22,567 nucleotides of DNA, taken from positions 1 to 22,567 of IMG/VR virus record IMGVR_UViG_3300044489_000065; one strand, written 5' to 3'. Numbering within the stretch: position 1 is the first letter of the stretch; the number at the start of each line of letters is the position of its first letter. Under the pieces are notes generated by a model. It made no database searches. It was given only the letters and a program-made list of their open reading frames with translations, and was not told where the DNA came from. The position numbers and the translations under genes were made by a program. Source of the stretch: a virus. This document shows, one piece after another, positions 1,994 through 8,345 of this stretch.

Positions 1994-2602
1994 ATGCAGA
2001 TCAAAATGCGCATTAAAGGCCTTGAGGACGCGAAGCGCGAGCTTCGGCGGCTGGCGGATCGCGCCGAGCGCGACAGGGCCATTGCCGCCGCCATCAACAA
2101 GGTGTCCGAGAAGGGGCGAACGGAGGTCAGCCGTGCTGTGCGCGAGGAGTGGAACATTGGCGCGTCCGATGTCTCCGCGTCGATCGGCCTGCGCCGCGCC
2201 AGCGCCAAAGGGCTGCGCCTTGACGGCGCCATCAACATCTACGGAAGCCCGAAGCGGCGCGGACGGTCGCTCAATCTTGTCCGGTTCATGGAGAAGAAGG
2301 TGACGCTGGCCGAAGGCCGCCGCCGTGCCAAGCGCGGAGACCTCATGAAGTTGTTCTTCAGGATGCGCAAGGGCGGCGGTCTTAAAGGGGTTGCCGGTGC
2401 GTTTTTGGGCAACAAAGGCCGCACCGTATTCCGCCGCACAGGGAAGGGGCGGCTTCCCATTGAGCCGGTTCAGATGATCGGCGTCAGCCAGATGTTCAAC
2501 AGTCGCGCCATCCGGGACCGTGTGATGCGGCGGATCGAGAACGAGTTCGGCATCGAAATCCACCGCGCCGTCGAGATGGTCATTGCCAGAAGGATGAAAT
2601 GA
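1994..2602 (+). CDS. Minor tail protein Z-like (lambda gpZ family), displaced into the early operon
   Basis: 202 residues, highly basic, with an N-terminal motif MQIKMRIKGLEDAKRELRRL followed by DRAIAAAINKVSEKGRTEVSRAV. This matches the Prophage minor tail protein Z family (lambda gpZ is 192 aa): a short beta-helix start, then AINRV-like helices, a basic middle (KRRGRSLNLVRFMEKKV, then RMRKGGGLKG), and the C-terminal PIEPVQMIGVSQMFNS...RDRVMRRIENEFGIEI. gpZ is needed for correct tail-head completion. In lambda it lies between FII and U; here that position (about 16865) holds no Z, while this copy lies between small early genes and the primase. The SD (AGG near 1983) is weak. The stop overlaps the primase start (ATGA). 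Confidence 0.75.
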   Translation: MQIKMRIKGLEDAKRELRRLADRAERDRAIAAAINKVSEKGRTEVSRAVREEWNIGASDVSASIGLRRASAKGLRLDGAINIYGSPKRRGRSLNLVRFMEKKVTLAEGRRRAKRGDLMKLFFRMRKGGGLKGVAGAFLGNKGRTVFRRTGKGRLPIEPVQMIGVSQMFNSRAIRDRVMRRIENEFGIEIHRAVEMVIARRMK

Positions 2603-4959
2603 GCAACCACGACGCCGTCATCAGCACCCTGCGCGCATCCGGTTTTGTGCTGGATGGGCTCGAGATTGGCCGGATGGTTCGGGTCAAGCGGCAGGGGCAC
2701 AAGCAAAAGGGCTGGTATGTCCTGAACGAGATCACGCTGGACGACGGGGCGCGGCATCTGATCGGGTCTTACGGATATTGGGCCGGGGCCGAGAAGTTCT
2801 CTGACAAGATCAGGCCGGGCCGCGATGTGCGCCTGTCTGCCGAGCAGCGGGCCGAGATCGAGGCCCGTCACAAAGCCGCCACGAAGGCGGAGGAAGAGCG
2901 CCGCCGCCTGCTCGCGCTTGACGCCTCCGCCAAGGCCACCCGGGTTTGGCGCGAATACAGGCCGGGTGGCGGGCAGTCTGGTTATCTGGCGCGGAAGTCG
3001 GTGGGTGCGCACGGCGTGCGCTGGGCGCCCGATGATCGGGACACCTTCGCCATCCCGATCCGGGACAACGACTACAAAATATGGGGCTTGCAGATCATCC
3101 GTGGCGGAAACCGCCGCCCTGGGCAGCTCGAGAAAGAATACTTCCCGGCAGGACTGGTCAAAAAGGGCCACTACCATCTCATCGGCGCGATCGTCGATGT
3201 GGTGCTGATCGCCGAGGGCTACGCCACCGGATCATCCCTGCACGAGGCGACTGGCCTGCCTGTGGTGGTCGCGTTCGACGCCGGAAACCTCAAGCCGGTC
3301 GCCGAGGCCATCCGCCGGGTGCACAAAAAGGCGCGCATCCTGATCTGTGCCGATGATGACTACCTGACCGACGGCAACCCGGGCGTGCGCCACGCCAATG
3401 AGGCCGCGCTGACGGTCGATGGACACTGGTGCAAGCCCTCGTTTACCGTTGAGCGCGCCAAAACCAAAGACAGCCGCGACTATATAACCGATTTTAATGA
3501 CCTCGCCTGCCGCGAAGGGGCTCAGGCGGTGCAGCGCATCATCCAGGCCGCCGTCGCCAAGCTGCCGCCCGTGCGGGGCGTGCCCACCGTCATGGTGCGG
3601 GGCGCGATACCCACGGGGGGCGGGGAGACGGCGGATGACGGCGCGATGCCCTCCATCATGTCCGTTGACGATGCCGCGCTGCGCTACTGGGGCACCTATG
3701 GGTTAGGTGGCAAAGTGCTGTTCGATGAAGTCGAGCGTCGGCTGGTTGCGAAGGACGATGTCATGAACCTGCTGCCCGAGCGCAGCTGGAACGACCTCAA
3801 GCGCCACCCGCACTGGCGCGTAGCCCGCGACAGCGAGATCGGCTTCGACCCGACCGATAAGGACGCGCAGATCAGGTGCAACCTGTTCGGAGGCTGGCCC
3901 ACCACGCCCAAGGCGGGCACCTGCGACAAGCTGCTGGGGCTGCTGGAGTACCTTTGCGCCAACGAAACCAACGAGCGCGAGGTTTACGAGTGGGTTCTGA
4001 AATGGCTCGCCTACCCGCTACAGCATCGCGGAGCCAAGATGCACAGCGCCATCGTCGTGCATGGCGGACAGGGCACTGGCAAAAGCCGGTTTTTCGAGGC
4101 CTATGGAAAAATTTTCGGGCCTTACGGACGGGTGCTGGGGCAAGAGGCGCTGGAAGACAAGTTCAACGCAGACTGGGCCGAGAAAAAGCTGTTCATCCTG
4201 GCCGACGAAGTGCTCGCGCGGCAGGACATGTACCACATCAAAAACCGGCTCAAAGGCTTCATCACCGGCGACACCATCCGCGTCAACCCCAAAAATGTCG
4301 CGGCGCACAACGAAAAAAACCAGATGAACATCGTTTTCCTGTCCAACGAGCGCCAGCCGTTGGTACTCGAAAACGACGACCGCCGACACCTGGTGATATG
4401 GGTACCGCCCAAGCTGGGGGACGATTACTTCAACGCGGTCAATGTCGAAATCGACAATGGCGGCATCGAAGCCCTGCACCACTACCTGTTAAACCTCGAT
4501 CTTGGCGACTTCAAACCCTGGACCCGACCGCCCATGACGGCGGCGAAGTCCGAGCTGATCGAGCTGGGCGCGAGCAGCGAAGACCGCTTCCTCAGGGAAT
4601 GGATGGCCGGGGAAATCGAAGACAAAGACGGCGAGACGCTGCCATTCATCCCGTGTCTGGGCTCTCACCTGTACCAGGCCTATAGCCTGTGGTGCGAGCA
4701 GCACGGCGAACGACGCCGGGGCGCGAAGGATTTATTGAGTCTGGCTGGCAAACAGCCCGGATGGACAGCGGGGAAATCCTGCCCGACATGGACCTCGCTT
4801 GTCGACCGCACAAACAAAAACCGAAAGATGGTGGTTCCCGCCGAGAGCGCCGTCGAAGGCGGCCCCAGCGGAGGCCGACATGCGCGAGGCACAAAAAGTA
4901 AGGCCGAATGGCTGACCTCCTGTTTTTTCGCATTCTCACAGGCGATGGTGTCCGAATGA
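2599..4959 (+). CDS. Phage replicative primase-helicase (Toprim + DUF5906/SF3-like ATPase), 786 aa
   Basis: A two-part replication protein. The Toprim-type primase region has VVLIAEGYATG (E206, G207) and the acidic motif ICADDD (D252-D254). The C-terminal helicase ATPase has Walker A GGQGTGKS (489-496), Walker B FILADE (D536, E537) and an SF3-like sensor asparagine in FLSNE (N583), followed by ENDDRRHLVIWV, typical of phage DUF5906 proteins. The region about 85-115 (AEQRAEIEARHKAATKAEEE) is a charged helix or coiled coil. I see no N-terminal zinc finger. It should prime and unwind DNA at the phage origin, and a two-armed iteron cluster begins four bases after its stop. It is coupled to Z by ATGA. 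Confidence 0.9.
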   Translation: MSNHDAVISTLRASGFVLDGLEIGRMVRVKRQGHKQKGWYVLNEITLDDGARHLIGSYGYWAGAEKFSDKIRPGRDVRLSAEQRAEIEARHKAATKAEEERRRLLALDASAKATRVWREYRPGGGQSGYLARKSVGAHGVRWAPDDRDTFAIPIRDNDYKIWGLQIIRGGNRRPGQLEKEYFPAGLVKKGHYHLIGAIVDVVLIAEGYATGSSLHEATGLPVVVAFDAGNLKPVAEAIRRVHKKARILICADDDYLTDGNPGVRHANEAALTVDGHWCKPSFTVERAKTKDSRDYITDFNDLACREGAQAVQRIIQAAVAKLPPVRGVPTVMVRGAIPTGGGETADDGAMPSIMSVDDAALRYWGTYGLGGKVLFDEVERRLVAKDDVMNLLPERSWNDLKRHPHWRVARDSEIGFDPTDKDAQIRCNLFGGWPTTPKAGTCDKLLGLLEYLCANETNEREVYEWVLKWLAYPLQHRGAKMHSAIVVHGGQGTGKSRFFEAYGKIFGPYGRVLGQEALEDKFNADWAEKKLFILADEVLARQDMYHIKNRLKGFITGDTIRVNPKNVAAHNEKNQMNIVFLSNERQPLVLENDDRRHLVIWVPPKLGDDYFNAVNVEIDNGGIEALHHYLLNLDLGDFKPWTRPPMTAAKSELIELGASSEDRFLREWMAGEIEDKDGETLPFIPCLGSHLYQAYSLWCEQHGERRRGAKDLLSLAGKQPGWTAGKSCPTWTSLVDRTNKNRKMVVPAESAVEGGPSGGRHARGTKSKAEWLTSCFFAFSQAMVSE

Positions 4960-5237
4960 AAAAACCACGGCAACCACGGCAAGCCACCACGGCACAAACC
5001 ACGGCACAAACCCAGCGTGCAGGCCAAAACCACGGCAACCACGGCAGAGGGGCCTCGTATGCACATATGTGCGGGCGTGTGCGCGTCATGTACACACACG
5101 CACCCGCACGCCCGGGTGCGCATTTCTTCCGTGGTTGCCGTGGTGTTAAGTGGTTTCAAATACTTACACCATTTTTTGCCGTGGTTTTTGCCGTGGTTTC
5201 AAAAATCCTGCCGTGGTTTACAGAGGTGACGCAATGA
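4956..5237 (+). CDS. Possible 93-aa ORF spanning the iteron array (doubtful)
   Basis: This frame opens in an ATGA overlap with the primase stop and closes in an ATGA overlap with the terminase small subunit start, matching the coupling pattern of the neighbouring genes. The predicted product is repeat-derived: MKKPRQPRQATTAQTTAQTQ at the start, NHGNHG in the middle, and a hydrophobic end (ILTPFFAVVFAVVSKILPWF). There is no SD at its start. Another frame of the same DNA is also largely open, as expected from a repeated DNA motif without stop codons. I think the DNA is primarily a binding-site array and the ORF secondary, but it could keep ribosomes running through to terS. Confidence 0.25.
   Translation: MKKPRQPRQATTAQTTAQTQRAGQNHGNHGRGASYAHMCGRVRVMYTHAPARPGAHFFRGCRGVKWFQILTPFFAVVFAVVSKILPWFTEVTQ
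4963..5218. repeat. Two-armed iteron array (6 direct + 5 inverted copies of AACCACGGCA): candidate ori or cos-binding site
   Basis: Left arm, plus orientation: AACCACGGCA at 4963, 4972, 4997, 5028 and 5037, plus a CCACGGCA core at 4987. Right arm, opposite orientation (TGCCGTGGTT): exact at 5177, 5189 and 5209, one mismatch at 5127 and 5136, and a half site GTGGTT near 5150. The pitch is 9 bp in three tandem pairs and irregular elsewhere. The 80-bp centre holds two palindromes. The array lies between the primase-helicase and the terminase small subunit. Clustered sites next to a replicative primase suggest an origin (compare phage P4 alpha and its iterons); sites directly upstream of a Nu1-like gene also fit a cosB-like element. 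By eye I did not see the full decamer elsewhere in the window. Confidence 0.9.
5061..5120. repeat. Central palindromes of the iteron array
   Basis: GCACATATGTGC (5061-5072) is a perfect 12-bp palindrome. Further right CGCACCCG (5099-5106) and CGGGTGCG (5113-5120) form an 8-bp hairpin stem with the 6-nt loop CACGCC. Between them lies an alternating purine-pyrimidine stretch (GTACACACACGCAC). Together they mark the symmetric core between the two oppositely oriented iteron arms, a likely site of melting, nicking or protein-induced looping. Confidence 0.6.
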
Positions 5238-5854
5238 ACAAAGTCACACAGGCAGAATTTGCGCGGATGTCCAATGTCACCCGGACCACGGTCAACCGCT
5301 GGATCGCCACGGGGCGCATCCAGACCGAGGCTGACGGGCTGATCGACCCCGTAGCCGCCACCCGGATGCGTGAGGCTACCGAAAGCCCCCTGCCCCACCA
5401 TCAGGCCCGCAAAGCCCAGATAGAGGCCGCCAAAGCCGCGAAGAGCGCGGGTGAATACCTAGACCCCACCCAGACCGAGAAAACGCAACACAGCGCATCC
5501 ACGGCGACCTCCAATACGCAGGGCGACACCGTCCCCGCGATGGAAAAACTAGGGGCCGCGCTCAAGCTGGAGACCTACAAGCTCCAGAAAGCCAAGGCCG
5601 AGCGCGAAAACCTCGCGCTGGACAAAGAAGCCGGGCTGCTGGTCGAGCGTGCCGAGGTCGAAATCGTCCTGGCCGACTACGGCGCCACGCTCCGCACCCT
5701 CATGGAAGGCCTGGCTGATCGCCTCTCGCCCACGCTGGCGGCGCACAAAGGCGATGTGCCCGCCATCCACGAAAGCCTTGATGCCGCGGCGCAAGACATC
5801 CTTTACACGCTCTCCGAACAAATAAAACGAAAAATGGAGGCTGTATGCCGTTGA
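5234..5854 (+). CDS. Terminase small subunit, lambda Nu1-like (206 aa)
   Basis: The N-terminus MNKVTQAEFARMSNVTRTTVNRWIATGRI is a winged-HTH/MerR-like DNA-binding domain like that of lambda gpNu1, followed by a Q/T-rich linker (about 55-100). A helical domain (LKLETYKLQKAKAERENLALD, then GLLVERAEVEIVLADYGATL) matches the Nu1 pattern of an ATPase-associated/dimerisation region and ends with MEGLADRLSPTLA. The protein should recognise the packaging site and recruit the large subunit. The ATG at 5234 is chosen for its GAGGTGA SD; an upstream start at 5150 would lie inside the iterons. The packaging-type iteron array lies directly upstream. The C4 promoter overlaps its stop codon, and the large subunit is 2.7 kb downstream. 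Confidence 0.75.
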   Translation: MNKVTQAEFARMSNVTRTTVNRWIATGRIQTEADGLIDPVAATRMREATESPLPHHQARKAQIEAAKAAKSAGEYLDPTQTEKTQHSASTATSNTQGDTVPAMEKLGAALKLETYKLQKAKAERENLALDKEAGLLVERAEVEIVLADYGATLRTLMEGLADRLSPTLAAHKGDVPAIHESLDAAAQDILYTLSEQIKRKMEAVCR

Positions 5855-5880
5855 CGCGCCGCAAATATTCGGGCTATGCT
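5851..5880 (+). promoter_or_regulatory. Putative promoter of the C4-like antisense RNA and antirepressor leader
   Basis: TTGACG (5851-5856) and TATGCT (5875-5880) are 18 nt apart. The -10 matches consensus at four of six positions. The predicted start near 5886-5888 coincides with the base of the first C4 hairpin. The -35 overlaps the terS stop codon. Confidence 0.6.
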
Positions 5881-5885
5881 TCCCC

Positions 5886-5969
5886 CGTCGCGGCAAATTC
5901 CGCGACCGGGTTTGGAAGCCCGACACTACGGCGGCGAAAGCCGCTGCGCGCAAGCCGAGCGGCTTTTTT
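5886..5969 (+). ncRNA. C4-like antisense RNA (P1/P7 immI type) controlling the antirepressor
   Basis: An RNA of about 84 nt, like the 77-nt C4 of P1. It contains an imperfect 11-bp stem (CCC-c-GTCGCGG ... CCGCGAC-c-GGG, 5883-5910) with loop CAAATT. A short GGG/CCC hairpin (5908-5921) exposes TTTGGAAG, then GACACTACG follows, and it ends in a terminator hairpin with six T. Two segments are complementary to the downstream antirepressor leader: GGGTTTGGAAGCC with 6041-6053 (12 pairs, two single-base bulges), and GCCCGACACTACG with 6081-6093 (12 pairs including one G-U, one bulge). This is the arrangement of the C4 antisense RNA family (Rfam C4), which represses translation of icd/ant in P1 and P7. 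Confidence 0.85.
5938..5969 (+). terminator. Terminator ending the C4-like RNA
   Basis: AAGCCGCT (5938-5945) pairs perfectly with AGCGGCTT (5958-5965) across a 12-nt loop, followed by T at 5964-5969. Readthrough would extend transcription into the antirepressor gene, so this is an attenuation or processing point. Confidence 0.8.
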
Positions 5970-6040
5970 CATGCCTTGGTGCGTCCAGTTTATGGGCGGG
6001 CCGGGCGGGGAGCCGCAAGGCTCGCCGGTTGCCGTAGCCG

Positions 6041-6093
6041 GCCTTCCAACCCGTTCGGTTCCGCCCACCCCGTTTGGAAGCGTGGTGTGCGGG
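6041..6093 (+). promoter_or_regulatory. C4 target sites in the antirepressor leader
   Basis: Two blocks complementary to the C4 RNA, at 6041-6053 and 6081-6093, lie 25-77 bases upstream of the BRO start codon. The leader also carries a sense copy of the C4 loop sequence, TTTGGAAG (6073-6080), which can pair in cis with CTTCCAA (6043-6049). The leader can therefore choose between an internal hairpin and pairing with C4, a plausible translational switch. Confidence 0.7.
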
Positions 6094-6117
6094 TCACAGA
6101 CCTTACGGAGAAACACC

Positions 6118-6837
6118 ATGGCAAAGCAAACCACCCCCGTCGTATTCCAATCCACCACCTTCGACATCGTTGACCGCAACGGTCAGACCTGGCTAAGGGG
6201 GCACCAAATTGGTGTAGCCCTTGGATACGCCAGAACCGACATCATTCAGAAGCTCTACCGCCAGCACGCCGACGAATTCACCGGCGACATGACCGCCGTG
6301 GTGCGTCTGCCCACCGAGGGCGGCGAGCAGGAAGTGCGCATCTTCTCGCCGCGCGGCTGCTACGCCCTGGGCATGTTCGCCCGCACCAAGGTTGCCAAGG
6401 ACTTCCGCGTCTGGGTGCTGGATGTGCTGGAAGGCAGGATCATGCCGCCTGCCCGCTCTGAAACGCACGAATTCAACCTGCGCGCGGTCATGATGGAAGG
6501 CAACACTACGCCCACCGTACCGTTGACGCAGGCCGTCCAGAAGGCGGTCAACCGCCGCGCCTGGGGCATGGCGCACGAGGCCTACGAATTGGCGCGCGCC
6601 TTCATCGAACGCCGGGTGGCATACAAGGCAGCGCTCGGCGTGCCGCGTCGGATCGACTTTAATCTGGCGATGGCAGCGATCCGCGAATGCACCCTCGATA
6701 TGGCACTCGCGCCACGCCACTACAACATGCTTGAGCAGATCATGACCTCCTCAGAACTGCTGGCCATTGCGGCAGAAAACCAGAGGGCCGCGTTGCATGA
6801 AGAATTCTCACGCCTTACGGGAGAAAACGATGAGTGA
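6118..6837 (+). CDS. BRO-N domain phage antirepressor (239 aa)
   Basis: Residues about 8-105 form a Bro-N domain: PVVFQSTTFDIVDRNGQTWL, GHQIGVALGYAR, FSPRGCYALGMFARTKVAK, then FRVWVLDVLEG. The C-terminal part (residues 120-239) is helical and probably mediates binding to a repressor or to DNA. Proteins of this type in phages such as P22 and N15 inactivate the repressor. The ATG at 6118 has GGAG 7 nt upstream; the frame stays open to 5845, but that part overlaps the C4 RNA and its terminator. An in-frame leader peptide from 5971 or 5992 is possible and would parallel the P1 icd reading frame that overlaps ant. Expression should be repressed by C4 RNA. The stop overlaps the next gene by 8 bases. 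Confidence 0.85.
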   Translation: MAKQTTPVVFQSTTFDIVDRNGQTWLRGHQIGVALGYARTDIIQKLYRQHADEFTGDMTAVVRLPTEGGEQEVRIFSPRGCYALGMFARTKVAKDFRVWVLDVLEGRIMPPARSETHEFNLRAVMMEGNTTPTVPLTQAVQKAVNRRAWGMAHEAYELARAFIERRVAYKAALGVPRRIDFNLAMAAIRECTLDMALAPRHYNMLEQIMTSSELLAIAAENQRAALHEEFSRLTGENDE

Positions 6838-7111: not shown

Positions 7112-7188
7112 CACACACCGAAAACATCCCAAAACCGGGTCAAAACCGGGGTCAGACCCCTTTAACCTCAAACAAGGAGGCAGCATGA
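7108..7188 (+). CDS. 26-residue coupled ORF before the methyltransferase (tentative)
   Basis: MTHTENIPKPGQNRGQTPLT, then SNKEAA, starts in an ATGA overlap with the preceding gene and ends in an ATGA overlap with the methyltransferase. It has no SD of its own, and its 3' end carries the strong AAGGAGG of the methyltransferase. It may exist only as spacer and coupling sequence. Confidence 0.3.
   Translation: MTHTENIPKPGQNRGQTPLTSNKEAA
7131..7160. repeat. Short tandem repeat plus GGGGTC-A-GACCCC palindrome
   Basis: AAAACCGGGTC (7131-7141) is followed immediately by AAAACCGGGGTC (7142-7153), which opens the 13-base palindrome GGGGTC-A-GACCCC (7148-7160). Similar GGGGTCAGACCCC hairpins are scattered in many proteobacterial genomes as REP-like elements; this single copy could be a remnant or a coincidence. 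Confidence 0.4.
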
Positions 7189-8345
7189 CACCCATCCGCC
7201 TGCACGACCGTTTTGAGACGCTGTCCATCGACGCGCTGATACCCTACGCACGCAACAGCCGCACGCACTCGCCAGAGCAGGTGGCGCAGATCGCAGCGAG
7301 CCTGCGCGAGTTTGGATTCACGAACCCGGTCCTGATCGACGAGACCGGCGGCATCATCGCGGGTCACGGGCGCGTCATGGCCGCCCGCCAGGCCGGACTG
7401 GATCGCGTGCCCTGCCTGCGTCTGGAGGGACTGACAGAGACACAAAAACGCGCCTACATCATCGCCGACAACAAACTGGCGCTGAATGCCGGGTGGGACG
7501 AAGACCTGCTGGCGCTTGAAATCAAAGACCTGCAAGGCATGGACTTCGACATCGACCTGCTGGGCTTCGACGCCAGCGAGATCGAGCAATACATCGCCAT
7601 GGCAGACGCCACCCCTGACGGCGAGACCGACCCGGACGAAGTGCCAGAGGTGCAGGCCGAGGCGGTGACGAAGCCCGGGGATGTCTGGCTACTCGGCAAG
7701 CATCGGATCATGTGCGGGGACAGCACGAACGCGGAGCAGGTGGCGAGGCTGATGAATGGGGAGAAGGCGTCTGCGTGTTTAACTGACCCACCGTATGGAC
7801 TCGGTAAAAAAATGTCTGGCGGAACATGGGCCACGAATGACTCAAATTATGCAGAAATGCACGAATGGGACAGGGTGGCTGATCAGCGGTTTTTTGATGC
7901 TGTAAGTGCTTTAGAAATTCCGTCGATTGTTTGGGGGGGGAATTACTCTTTATGCCCACCGTCTCGCGGGTGGCTGATATGGAATAAACCGTATTTCCCA
8001 ACAATGTCTGATTGCGAGCTTGCGTGGACAAATATGGACATGAATGCAAAGCGTTTTGACGGCCCGCGTGTTCATCAGTCTGACGGGAAAAAACAGCACC
8101 CGACACAAAAGCCGGTTGATTTGATGGTGTGGTGTTTAGGGTATTTCAAGGATTGCGATTCTGTTGTTGATATATTTTCAGGCTCCGGCACCACCATCAT
8201 CGCCGCCGAGCAAACAGGCCGCCGCTGCTACGCGATGGAGCTGTCGCCGCAGTATGTCGATGTCGCCGTCCGCCGCTGGCAGCGATTTACCGGCAAAACA
8301 GCCACGCTTGAAGCGACCGGAGCGTCGTTCCCGGGTGACGCATGA
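7185..8345 (+). CDS. ParB-like N domain fused to N6-adenine DNA methyltransferase (386 aa)
   Basis: Residues 10-100 form a ParB/Srx-like domain (LSIDALIPYARNSRTHSPEQ, then IAASLREFGFTNPVLID, GIIAGHGRVMAARQAGL). After an acidic linker the methyltransferase begins (KPGDVWLLGKHRIMCGDST): catalytic motif IV is DPPY (201-204) and the AdoMet motif I is FSGSG (331-335), preceded by HPTQKPVDLM. The order DPPY before FxGxG indicates a beta-class adenine methyltransferase. Its likely role is protection of phage DNA from host restriction, or DNA marking. AAGGAGG lies upstream of 7185. The stretch 7801-8160 is about 47% GC (169 of 360 counted), against about 70-73% in sample rows on either side. A G8 run lies at 7933-7940. 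No restriction endonuclease is adjacent. Confidence 0.9.
   Translation: MTPIRLHDRFETLSIDALIPYARNSRTHSPEQVAQIAASLREFGFTNPVLIDETGGIIAGHGRVMAARQAGLDRVPCLRLEGLTETQKRAYIIADNKLALNAGWDEDLLALEIKDLQGMDFDIDLLGFDASEIEQYIAMADATPDGETDPDEVPEVQAEAVTKPGDVWLLGKHRIMCGDSTNAEQVARLMNGEKASACLTDPPYGLGKKMSGGTWATNDSNYAEMHEWDRVADQRFFDAVSALEIPSIVWGGNYSLCPPSRGWLIWNKPYFPTMSDCELAWTNMDMNAKRFDGPRVHQSDGKKQHPTQKPVDLMVWCLGYFKDCDSVVDIFSGSGTTIIAAEQTGRRCYAMELSPQYVDVAVRRWQRFTGKTATLEATGASFPGDA

Follow-up and report, generated by a model that had tools for sequence, protein, structure and literature searches.

A two-armed iteron array after a phage primase-helicase gene: a probable replication origin read by a winged helix

Short repeats on both DNA strands separate the gene of a Toprim primase-helicase from that of a terminase small subunit (TerS) in an uncultured virus. 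The question is what this array does, and which of its neighbours reads it. The window, meaning the whole stretch of DNA that was analysed, comprises 22,567 nucleotides of IMG/VR record IMGVR_UViG_3300044489_000065. Besides the primase and TerS, the record has genes for a ParB-methyltransferase fusion, a gpA-type TerL, a portal protein, a major capsid protein and head-tail joining proteins. By its terminase, portal and capsid genes it belongs to a tailed phage rather than to a satellite.

The reading favoured here, with a probability of about 0.88, is that the array is a phage replication origin, bound sequence-specifically by the C-terminal winged helix of the upstream primase-helicase. It is drawn from the comparison of sequences across homologous loci.

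Geometry of the array

Eleven copies of the word AACCACGGCA lie over positions 4963-5218, six direct and five inverted. An earlier note, made from the window's sequence alone, had described these copies, their division into exact and mismatched ones and three pairs at 9-bp pitch. A recount bears out each of these points, the pairs being 4963/4972, 5028/5037 and 5127/5136. All eight occurrences of the exact 10-mer in the 22.6-kb record fall inside the array. The array scores 10.7, whereas none of 300 dinucleotide-preserving shuffles scores above 3.8 and none of 94 other window tiles above 6.6. Two features had been overlooked: an AT-rich spacer (5156-5176) and a degenerate twelfth copy, TTAAGTGGTT, which keeps the AACCAC half on the minus strand. 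The slot of this copy is filled in four homologous loci (L048, L050, L026 and L123), and is intact in the close homologues L048 and L050.

Table 1. Features of the array and its neighbouring genes in the window
Feature	Position	Strand	Basis or remark
Toprim primase / SF3-type (DUF5906) helicase, 786 aa, proposed origin-binding initiator	2599..4959	+	Pfam, phrog, fold
Winged-helix part of C-terminal domain, codons 684-747, proposed repeat reader	4648..4839	+	AlphaFold2 and co-variation
Left arm site 1, AACCACGGCA	4963..4972	+	sequence scan, exact
Left arm site 2	4972..4981	+	sequence scan, exact
Left arm site 3, CACCACGGCA	4985..4994	+	sequence scan, one mismatch
Left arm site 4	4997..5006	+	sequence scan, exact
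Left arm site 5	5028..5037	+	sequence scan, exact
Left arm site 6	5037..5046	+	sequence scan, exact
Core between arms (80 bp), alternating purine-pyrimidine tracts	5047..5126	.	18 bp at 5056-5073; 17 bp at 5087-5103
Right arm site 1	5127..5136	-	sequence scan, one mismatch
Right arm site 2	5136..5145	-	sequence scan, one mismatch
Right arm site 3, degenerate, AACCAC half only	5146..5155	-	sequence; homologous slot occupied
TCAAATACTTACA, instance of fixed element TCAANGRCTTACA	5156..5168	+	within AT-rich spacer
Right arm site 4	5177..5186	-	sequence scan, exact
Right arm site 5	5189..5198	-	sequence scan, exact
Right arm site 6	5209..5218	-	sequence scan, exact
Terminase small subunit, neighbouring gene	5234..5854	+	phrog_57 5e-22; judged outside origin

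Homologues of the primase were drawn from viral contigs, bacterial genomes and cultured phages, giving 97 non-redundant loci. Control tiles were taken from these loci, and their 95th percentile served as the threshold for scoring the 460 bp around and after each primase stop. An array above this threshold directly follows the primase stop in 96 of the 97, and in nearly all loci the first iteron lies at most a few tens of base pairs past the stop. Comparable repeat patches after DUF5906-type primases, which the earlier note had mentioned for other prophages, are thus real. Among cultured phages, S1, Turba, pAN, SC_9 and H4907 carry the array after the primase. A search for homologue records of phage identity with the portal family PF04860 returned nothing, this being the wrong portal family, and TerL matches were used instead as the sign of a phage.

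The spacing of the sites is nearly constant: 9, 12, 12, about 31 and 9 bp, followed by the mirror image. Most pitches are 9 or 12 bp, and each arm has a single gap of 31-43 bp. Strand order is strictly forward then reverse in 83 of the 97 loci. The commonest left arm has six sites and the commonest total is twelve (6+6, 29 loci); seven loci have more than twelve. In L053 the arms mirror each other as 9-12-12-31-9 and 9-12-12-32-9, and mirror-exact arms are likewise found in L071, L074, L092, L099 and L104. The helical coherence of site positions peaks near 10.5 bp in both arms, so that the sites tend toward one face of the helix. Some loci show as few as 4-8 recognisable sites, which may reflect the calling of the word rather than biology.

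Several layouts depart from this pattern. Four Pseudomonas phages (L023, L024, L025 and L131) have the outer sites of the right arm flipped (+++ instead of ---), a third layout variant. Another six loci (L035, L104, L109, L031, L039 and L044) have one flipped site per arm, ++-+++ then --+---, and their words start with TGTTC, as does the P4 word TGTTCACC. In Pseudomonas phage vB_Pae_U5 (L128, 6550-6850), the gene of a VapE-type Toprim primase is followed by a small ORF and an array like those above (CTGTCCCAC), which also has an alternating core and carries AACAATGGGTTAT; the module therefore extends beyond DUF5906 primases. Phages Mano and FoX1, which share only the Toprim part with the window primase and have VapE-type helicases, show no array after the primase. 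In Vibrio phage 1.111 (L126, 1-400), which has a DUF5906 protein, the toprim gene or operon is preceded on its 5' side by repeats (GGGAATCTA and its inverse), and these do not stand 3' of the helicase gene. The hypothetical gene gp2 annotated in Stenotrophomonas phage S1 (L020, 2454-2804) extends over the iteron array and is unlikely to be real.

Other genes around the array were noted as well. In the early region, a homologue of Minor_tail_Z or tail-completion proteins (1994-2602; PF06763, phrog_27) runs into the start of the primase gene. Six other loci (L065, L116, L084, L087, L100 and L123) have a relative at this place, an odd one for a structural gene. The ParB-like N-terminus fused to a DNA methyltransferase (7185-8345) lies near the array in many homologues, and directly after it in L050, L107 and L123. 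A BRO-N antirepressor-like ORF (5845-6837) is inserted between TerS and the methyltransferase.

The protein that tracks the word

The window primase-helicase combines a Toprim primase, an SF3/DUF5906 helicase and a C-terminal winged helix in one protein. Its Pfam matches are Toprim_3 (3e-10) and DUF5906 (6e-22), and it matches phrog_2249, DNA primase, at 2e-121. The model of residues 361-786 resembles the helicase region of the phage NrS-1 PrimPol (6k9c, 6k9e, 6lrb), the closest solved relative (sequence E 9e-17, fold E 1e-18). NrS-1 has a PrimPol where the window protein has a Toprim primase. The model also resembles SaPI5 PriRep1 (7ola, 5e-9), and the helicase part matches poxvirus D5/E5 in structure comparison.

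For the C-terminal domain, AlphaFold2 predicts a confident winged helix (pLDDT 91, helix-helix-strand-strand), in which helix 709-718 is likely the recognition helix. A Foldseek search of this domain alone against the PDB gave no significant match (best E 0.5); the top matches, below significance, were winged helices (RFX-DBD, Orc1/Cdc6).

Each locus has its own iteron word. Examples are AACCACGGCA, AACTACGCCA, ATGGTTACGC, GCGCACGGG and TGTGCAGGGT, and further TGTGTTGGGT, TATTACCCAT, TGTTCCGGGT and AAGCCTACA. Identity among the copies of one locus is 90%, whereas it is 46% at the best offset between consensus words from loci whose ATPase domains are 50-60% identical. The copies of a replicon thus change in concert, which is what a single protein reading every copy would lead one to expect. 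A DNA-level search for the array among phages found no match, as expected if the words differ.

The earlier note had proposed that homologous loci be aligned and examined for co-variation of the repeat with either the primase or TerS. Mantel tests are liberal, and their informative part is the contrast between domains under one test. Across 86 loci, word distance follows the distance of the C-terminal domain given the ATPase (partial Mantel 0.33, p 0.001), with a reverse partial of 0.10. When windows are slid over residues 455-786, the signal concentrates at 684-747. Among full-length loci the partial correlation is 0.36 for the winged helix and 0.03 for both the N-terminus and the Toprim domain, although the N-terminus is nearly as variable as the winged helix. 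An example is L070, where the ATPase is 80% identical, the winged helix 27% identical and the word different. For 48 loci a TerS homologue allowed the two proteins to be compared: with TerS controlled for, word distance correlates with that of the C-terminal domain (partial r 0.52, p 0.002). The converse correlation, with TerS given the C-terminal domain, is -0.017 (p 0.56), and that with the TerS helix-turn-helix (HTH) is -0.013. The repeat thus co-varies with the primase, through its winged helix, and shows no co-variation with TerS.

Two further elements stay constant while the word changes. The longest alternating purine-pyrimidine run in the window core is 18 bp; in the cores of 81 homologous loci it averages 19.5 bp, against 6.5 bp in 9,377 control tiles, and 94% of these cores exceed the 99th percentile of the controls. 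The alternating, Z-prone tracts are kept between the arms in homologues, but their exact sequence is not. The element TCAANGRCTTACA recurs in right-arm spacers whatever the iteron word, scoring 8.3 bits per sequence where shuffled spacers reach 4.3 (80 loci). AT content is 61% in the right-arm spacer, 44% in the core and 39% in the loci overall. Since the alternating core and TCAANGRCTTACA are constant under a changing word, the winged helix probably does not read them. TCAAATACTTACA/TCAANGRCTTACA is a possible melting element; melting, host-factor binding and primer start sites are possible roles for both.

The core had been described in the earlier note as 80 bp long with two palindromes. 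The length stands and palindromes are present, such as a hairpin at 5099-5120, but shuffled versions of the core fold just as well (z = -0.5), and hairpins were rejected as its key feature.

Origin model and its rivals

That an origin is bound by the Toprim/SF3 protein upstream, as the earlier note had suggested, is strongly supported by the array's place at the primase stop (96/97) and by a word that tracks the winged helix. In the model proposed here, each arm would offer about six sites on one helix face, enough for one hexamer. The mirrored arms would place two hexameric, self-loading helicases head to head. This pair would open the duplex, probably at the AT-rich spacer of the right arm, in the core, or at both. 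Bidirectional synthesis would then start at the array, with primers made by the Toprim domain. Each phage has its own word, and the model explains this by a winged helix and iterons that change together. An origin would then respond to no initiator but its own.

The model predicts the binding, the stoichiometry of the hexamers, the place of melting and the activity as an origin. One hexamer per arm, melting and a bidirectional start are carried over by analogy from SaPI Rep (PMC7581432), from the plasmid test of EcCICFT073 (PMC6092414) and from the biology of P4 alpha. The two-hexamer reading is suggested by site counts. The loading of two helicases in opposite directions, raised in the earlier note, agrees with the 6+6 mirror layout and is still a proposal. 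Against an origin, the AT-rich segment lies inside the right arm, whereas phage-inducible chromosomal islands (PICIs) have it between the arms. GC skew gave no origin signal, the cumulative skew having only a weak local maximum near 4 kb.

Another model takes the array for mainly an operator or copy-number element (handcuffing, or like crr of P4). Through it the primase would regulate its own operon or titrate initiator, and replication would start elsewhere. The array precedes the packaging operon, and in P4 crr directly follows alpha and is distinct from a distant ori. The record of the window, which may be partial, has no second cluster of the word in its 22.6 kb. No promoter-like site was found in the array by a simple scan, and the 6+6 mirror layout with an AT-rich spacer resembles PICI origins of tested function. 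This model is considered unlikely. Because P4 keeps a separate ori besides crr, the array could, by the same analogy, be an accessory cis region.

A cosB-like packaging role, in which the downstream Nu1-like TerS would bind the array, is very unlikely, whether as the sole function or besides an origin. TerS is the next gene in the window and in most homologues, it has a weak N-terminal HTH match, and TerL is of the gpA type. Repeated sites near a terminase small-subunit gene are also found in lambda cosB/Nu1. Here, however, the word diverges independently of TerS and its HTH, as the correlations above show, and the array does not move with the gene. In many loci TerS is 0.7-5.2 kb away and the array is still at the primase; the distance is 1.5-5.2 kb in L050, L026, L065, L083, L107, L113, L118, L123, L024 and others. 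Phage Turba likewise has TerS 1.5-5 kb off, and in H4907 and Mcat6 other genes stand between the array or primase and TerS. A tblastn search of phages with the window TerS gave no match. The same TerS evidence leaves both the cosB-like site and the coupling of replication to packaging, which the earlier note had raised, without support.

The ParB-like methyltransferase fusion might instead use the array as a partition or methylation-control site, since ParB proteins bind repeated sites and the gene lies less than 2 kb from the array and near it in several homologues. However, many array loci, such as L054, L064, L081 and L053, have no match to this protein in the 6 kb searched downstream, and none was found in the fetched stretches of the cultured phages S1, Turba and pAN, which have the array. 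Such a role is extremely improbable.

Relation to the origins of P4 and PICIs

The preferred reading, an origin bound by the winged helix of the primase-helicase, has precedents in satellites. P4 alpha likewise unites Toprim_3, a DUF5906 helicase and a C-terminal DNA-binding domain in one protein. Directly downstream of its initiator gene, P4 has short iterons on both strands (crr), including pairs with a 9-bp pitch. The six sites of P4 ori are ordered ---+--, the reverse complement of the ++-+++ arm in L035, L104 and L039. The type I iteron word of P4, TGTTCACC, differs from AACCACGGCA, but the words of L035, L044 and L109 share its TGTTC. In P4 ori and crr are separate, and its crr, a direct duplication of 120 bp, differs from the mirror layout here. 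By Pfam, the window primase lacks the Zn-ribbon primase domain present in P4 alpha and Moraxella Mcat6, and it has no Pox_D5 match.

The pri-rep-ori units of EcCICFT073 and other Gram-negative PICIs have a DUF5906 helicase gene with two iteron sets right behind it, written in an element-specific word. EcCICFT073 has about twelve CTGTCTACC sites, in the strand order ++-+++ then --+, as in L035, L104 and L039, and its pri-ori unit supports plasmid maintenance (PMC6092414). PICIs are satellites that depend on a helper phage, unlike the phage of this record, and their AT-rich region is flanked by both iteron sets. No alternating core was seen in EcCICFT073, whose helicase has Pfam D5_N and Pox_D5.

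SaPI Rep (SaPI5 PriRep1, PDB 7ola/7om0/7pds) shares the hexameric self-loading helicase fold, with Foldseek E values of 5e-9 to 3e-8 for 7ola and 7pds. It reads the origin directly downstream via its C-terminal domain, and two hexamers have been proposed (PMC7581432). SaPI primases are of the AEP type, in contrast to the Toprim primase here, and the relatives found in this comparison belong to Proteobacteria or their phages. A kinship with P4 alpha and with PICI Pri is suggested by shared Pfam domains and predicted fold, not by direct alignment. BLAST between the window and EcCICFT073 primases was not significant, and single-sequence hhalign of the window primase with P4 alpha gave a probability of 33%.

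The origin layout has been called a hallmark of PICIs, present in no other known bacterial replicon (PMC6092414). Judging from the loci compared here, the mirrored layout of these putative origins is general in full-size tailed phages and not unique to PICIs. No description of it in full-size phages was found in CC-licensed full texts; an earlier one is possible in subscription papers.

A wider proposal is tentative, its odds falling somewhat short of even. Many temperate tailed phages may share a standardised two-hexamer origin of twelve sites, one per subunit, in which mirror arms surround a Z-prone core and a fixed TCAANGRCTTACA melting element, and the word is freely rewritten along with the winged helix. 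If this is true, these phages hold a natural library of matched initiator-origin pairs, and co-resident phages would be kept from firing each other's origins. Nearly 100 matched pairs of winged helix and word in a constant layout make a recognition code and the model of two-helicase loading directly testable. The arrays would also mark replication origins in otherwise unannotated prophages.
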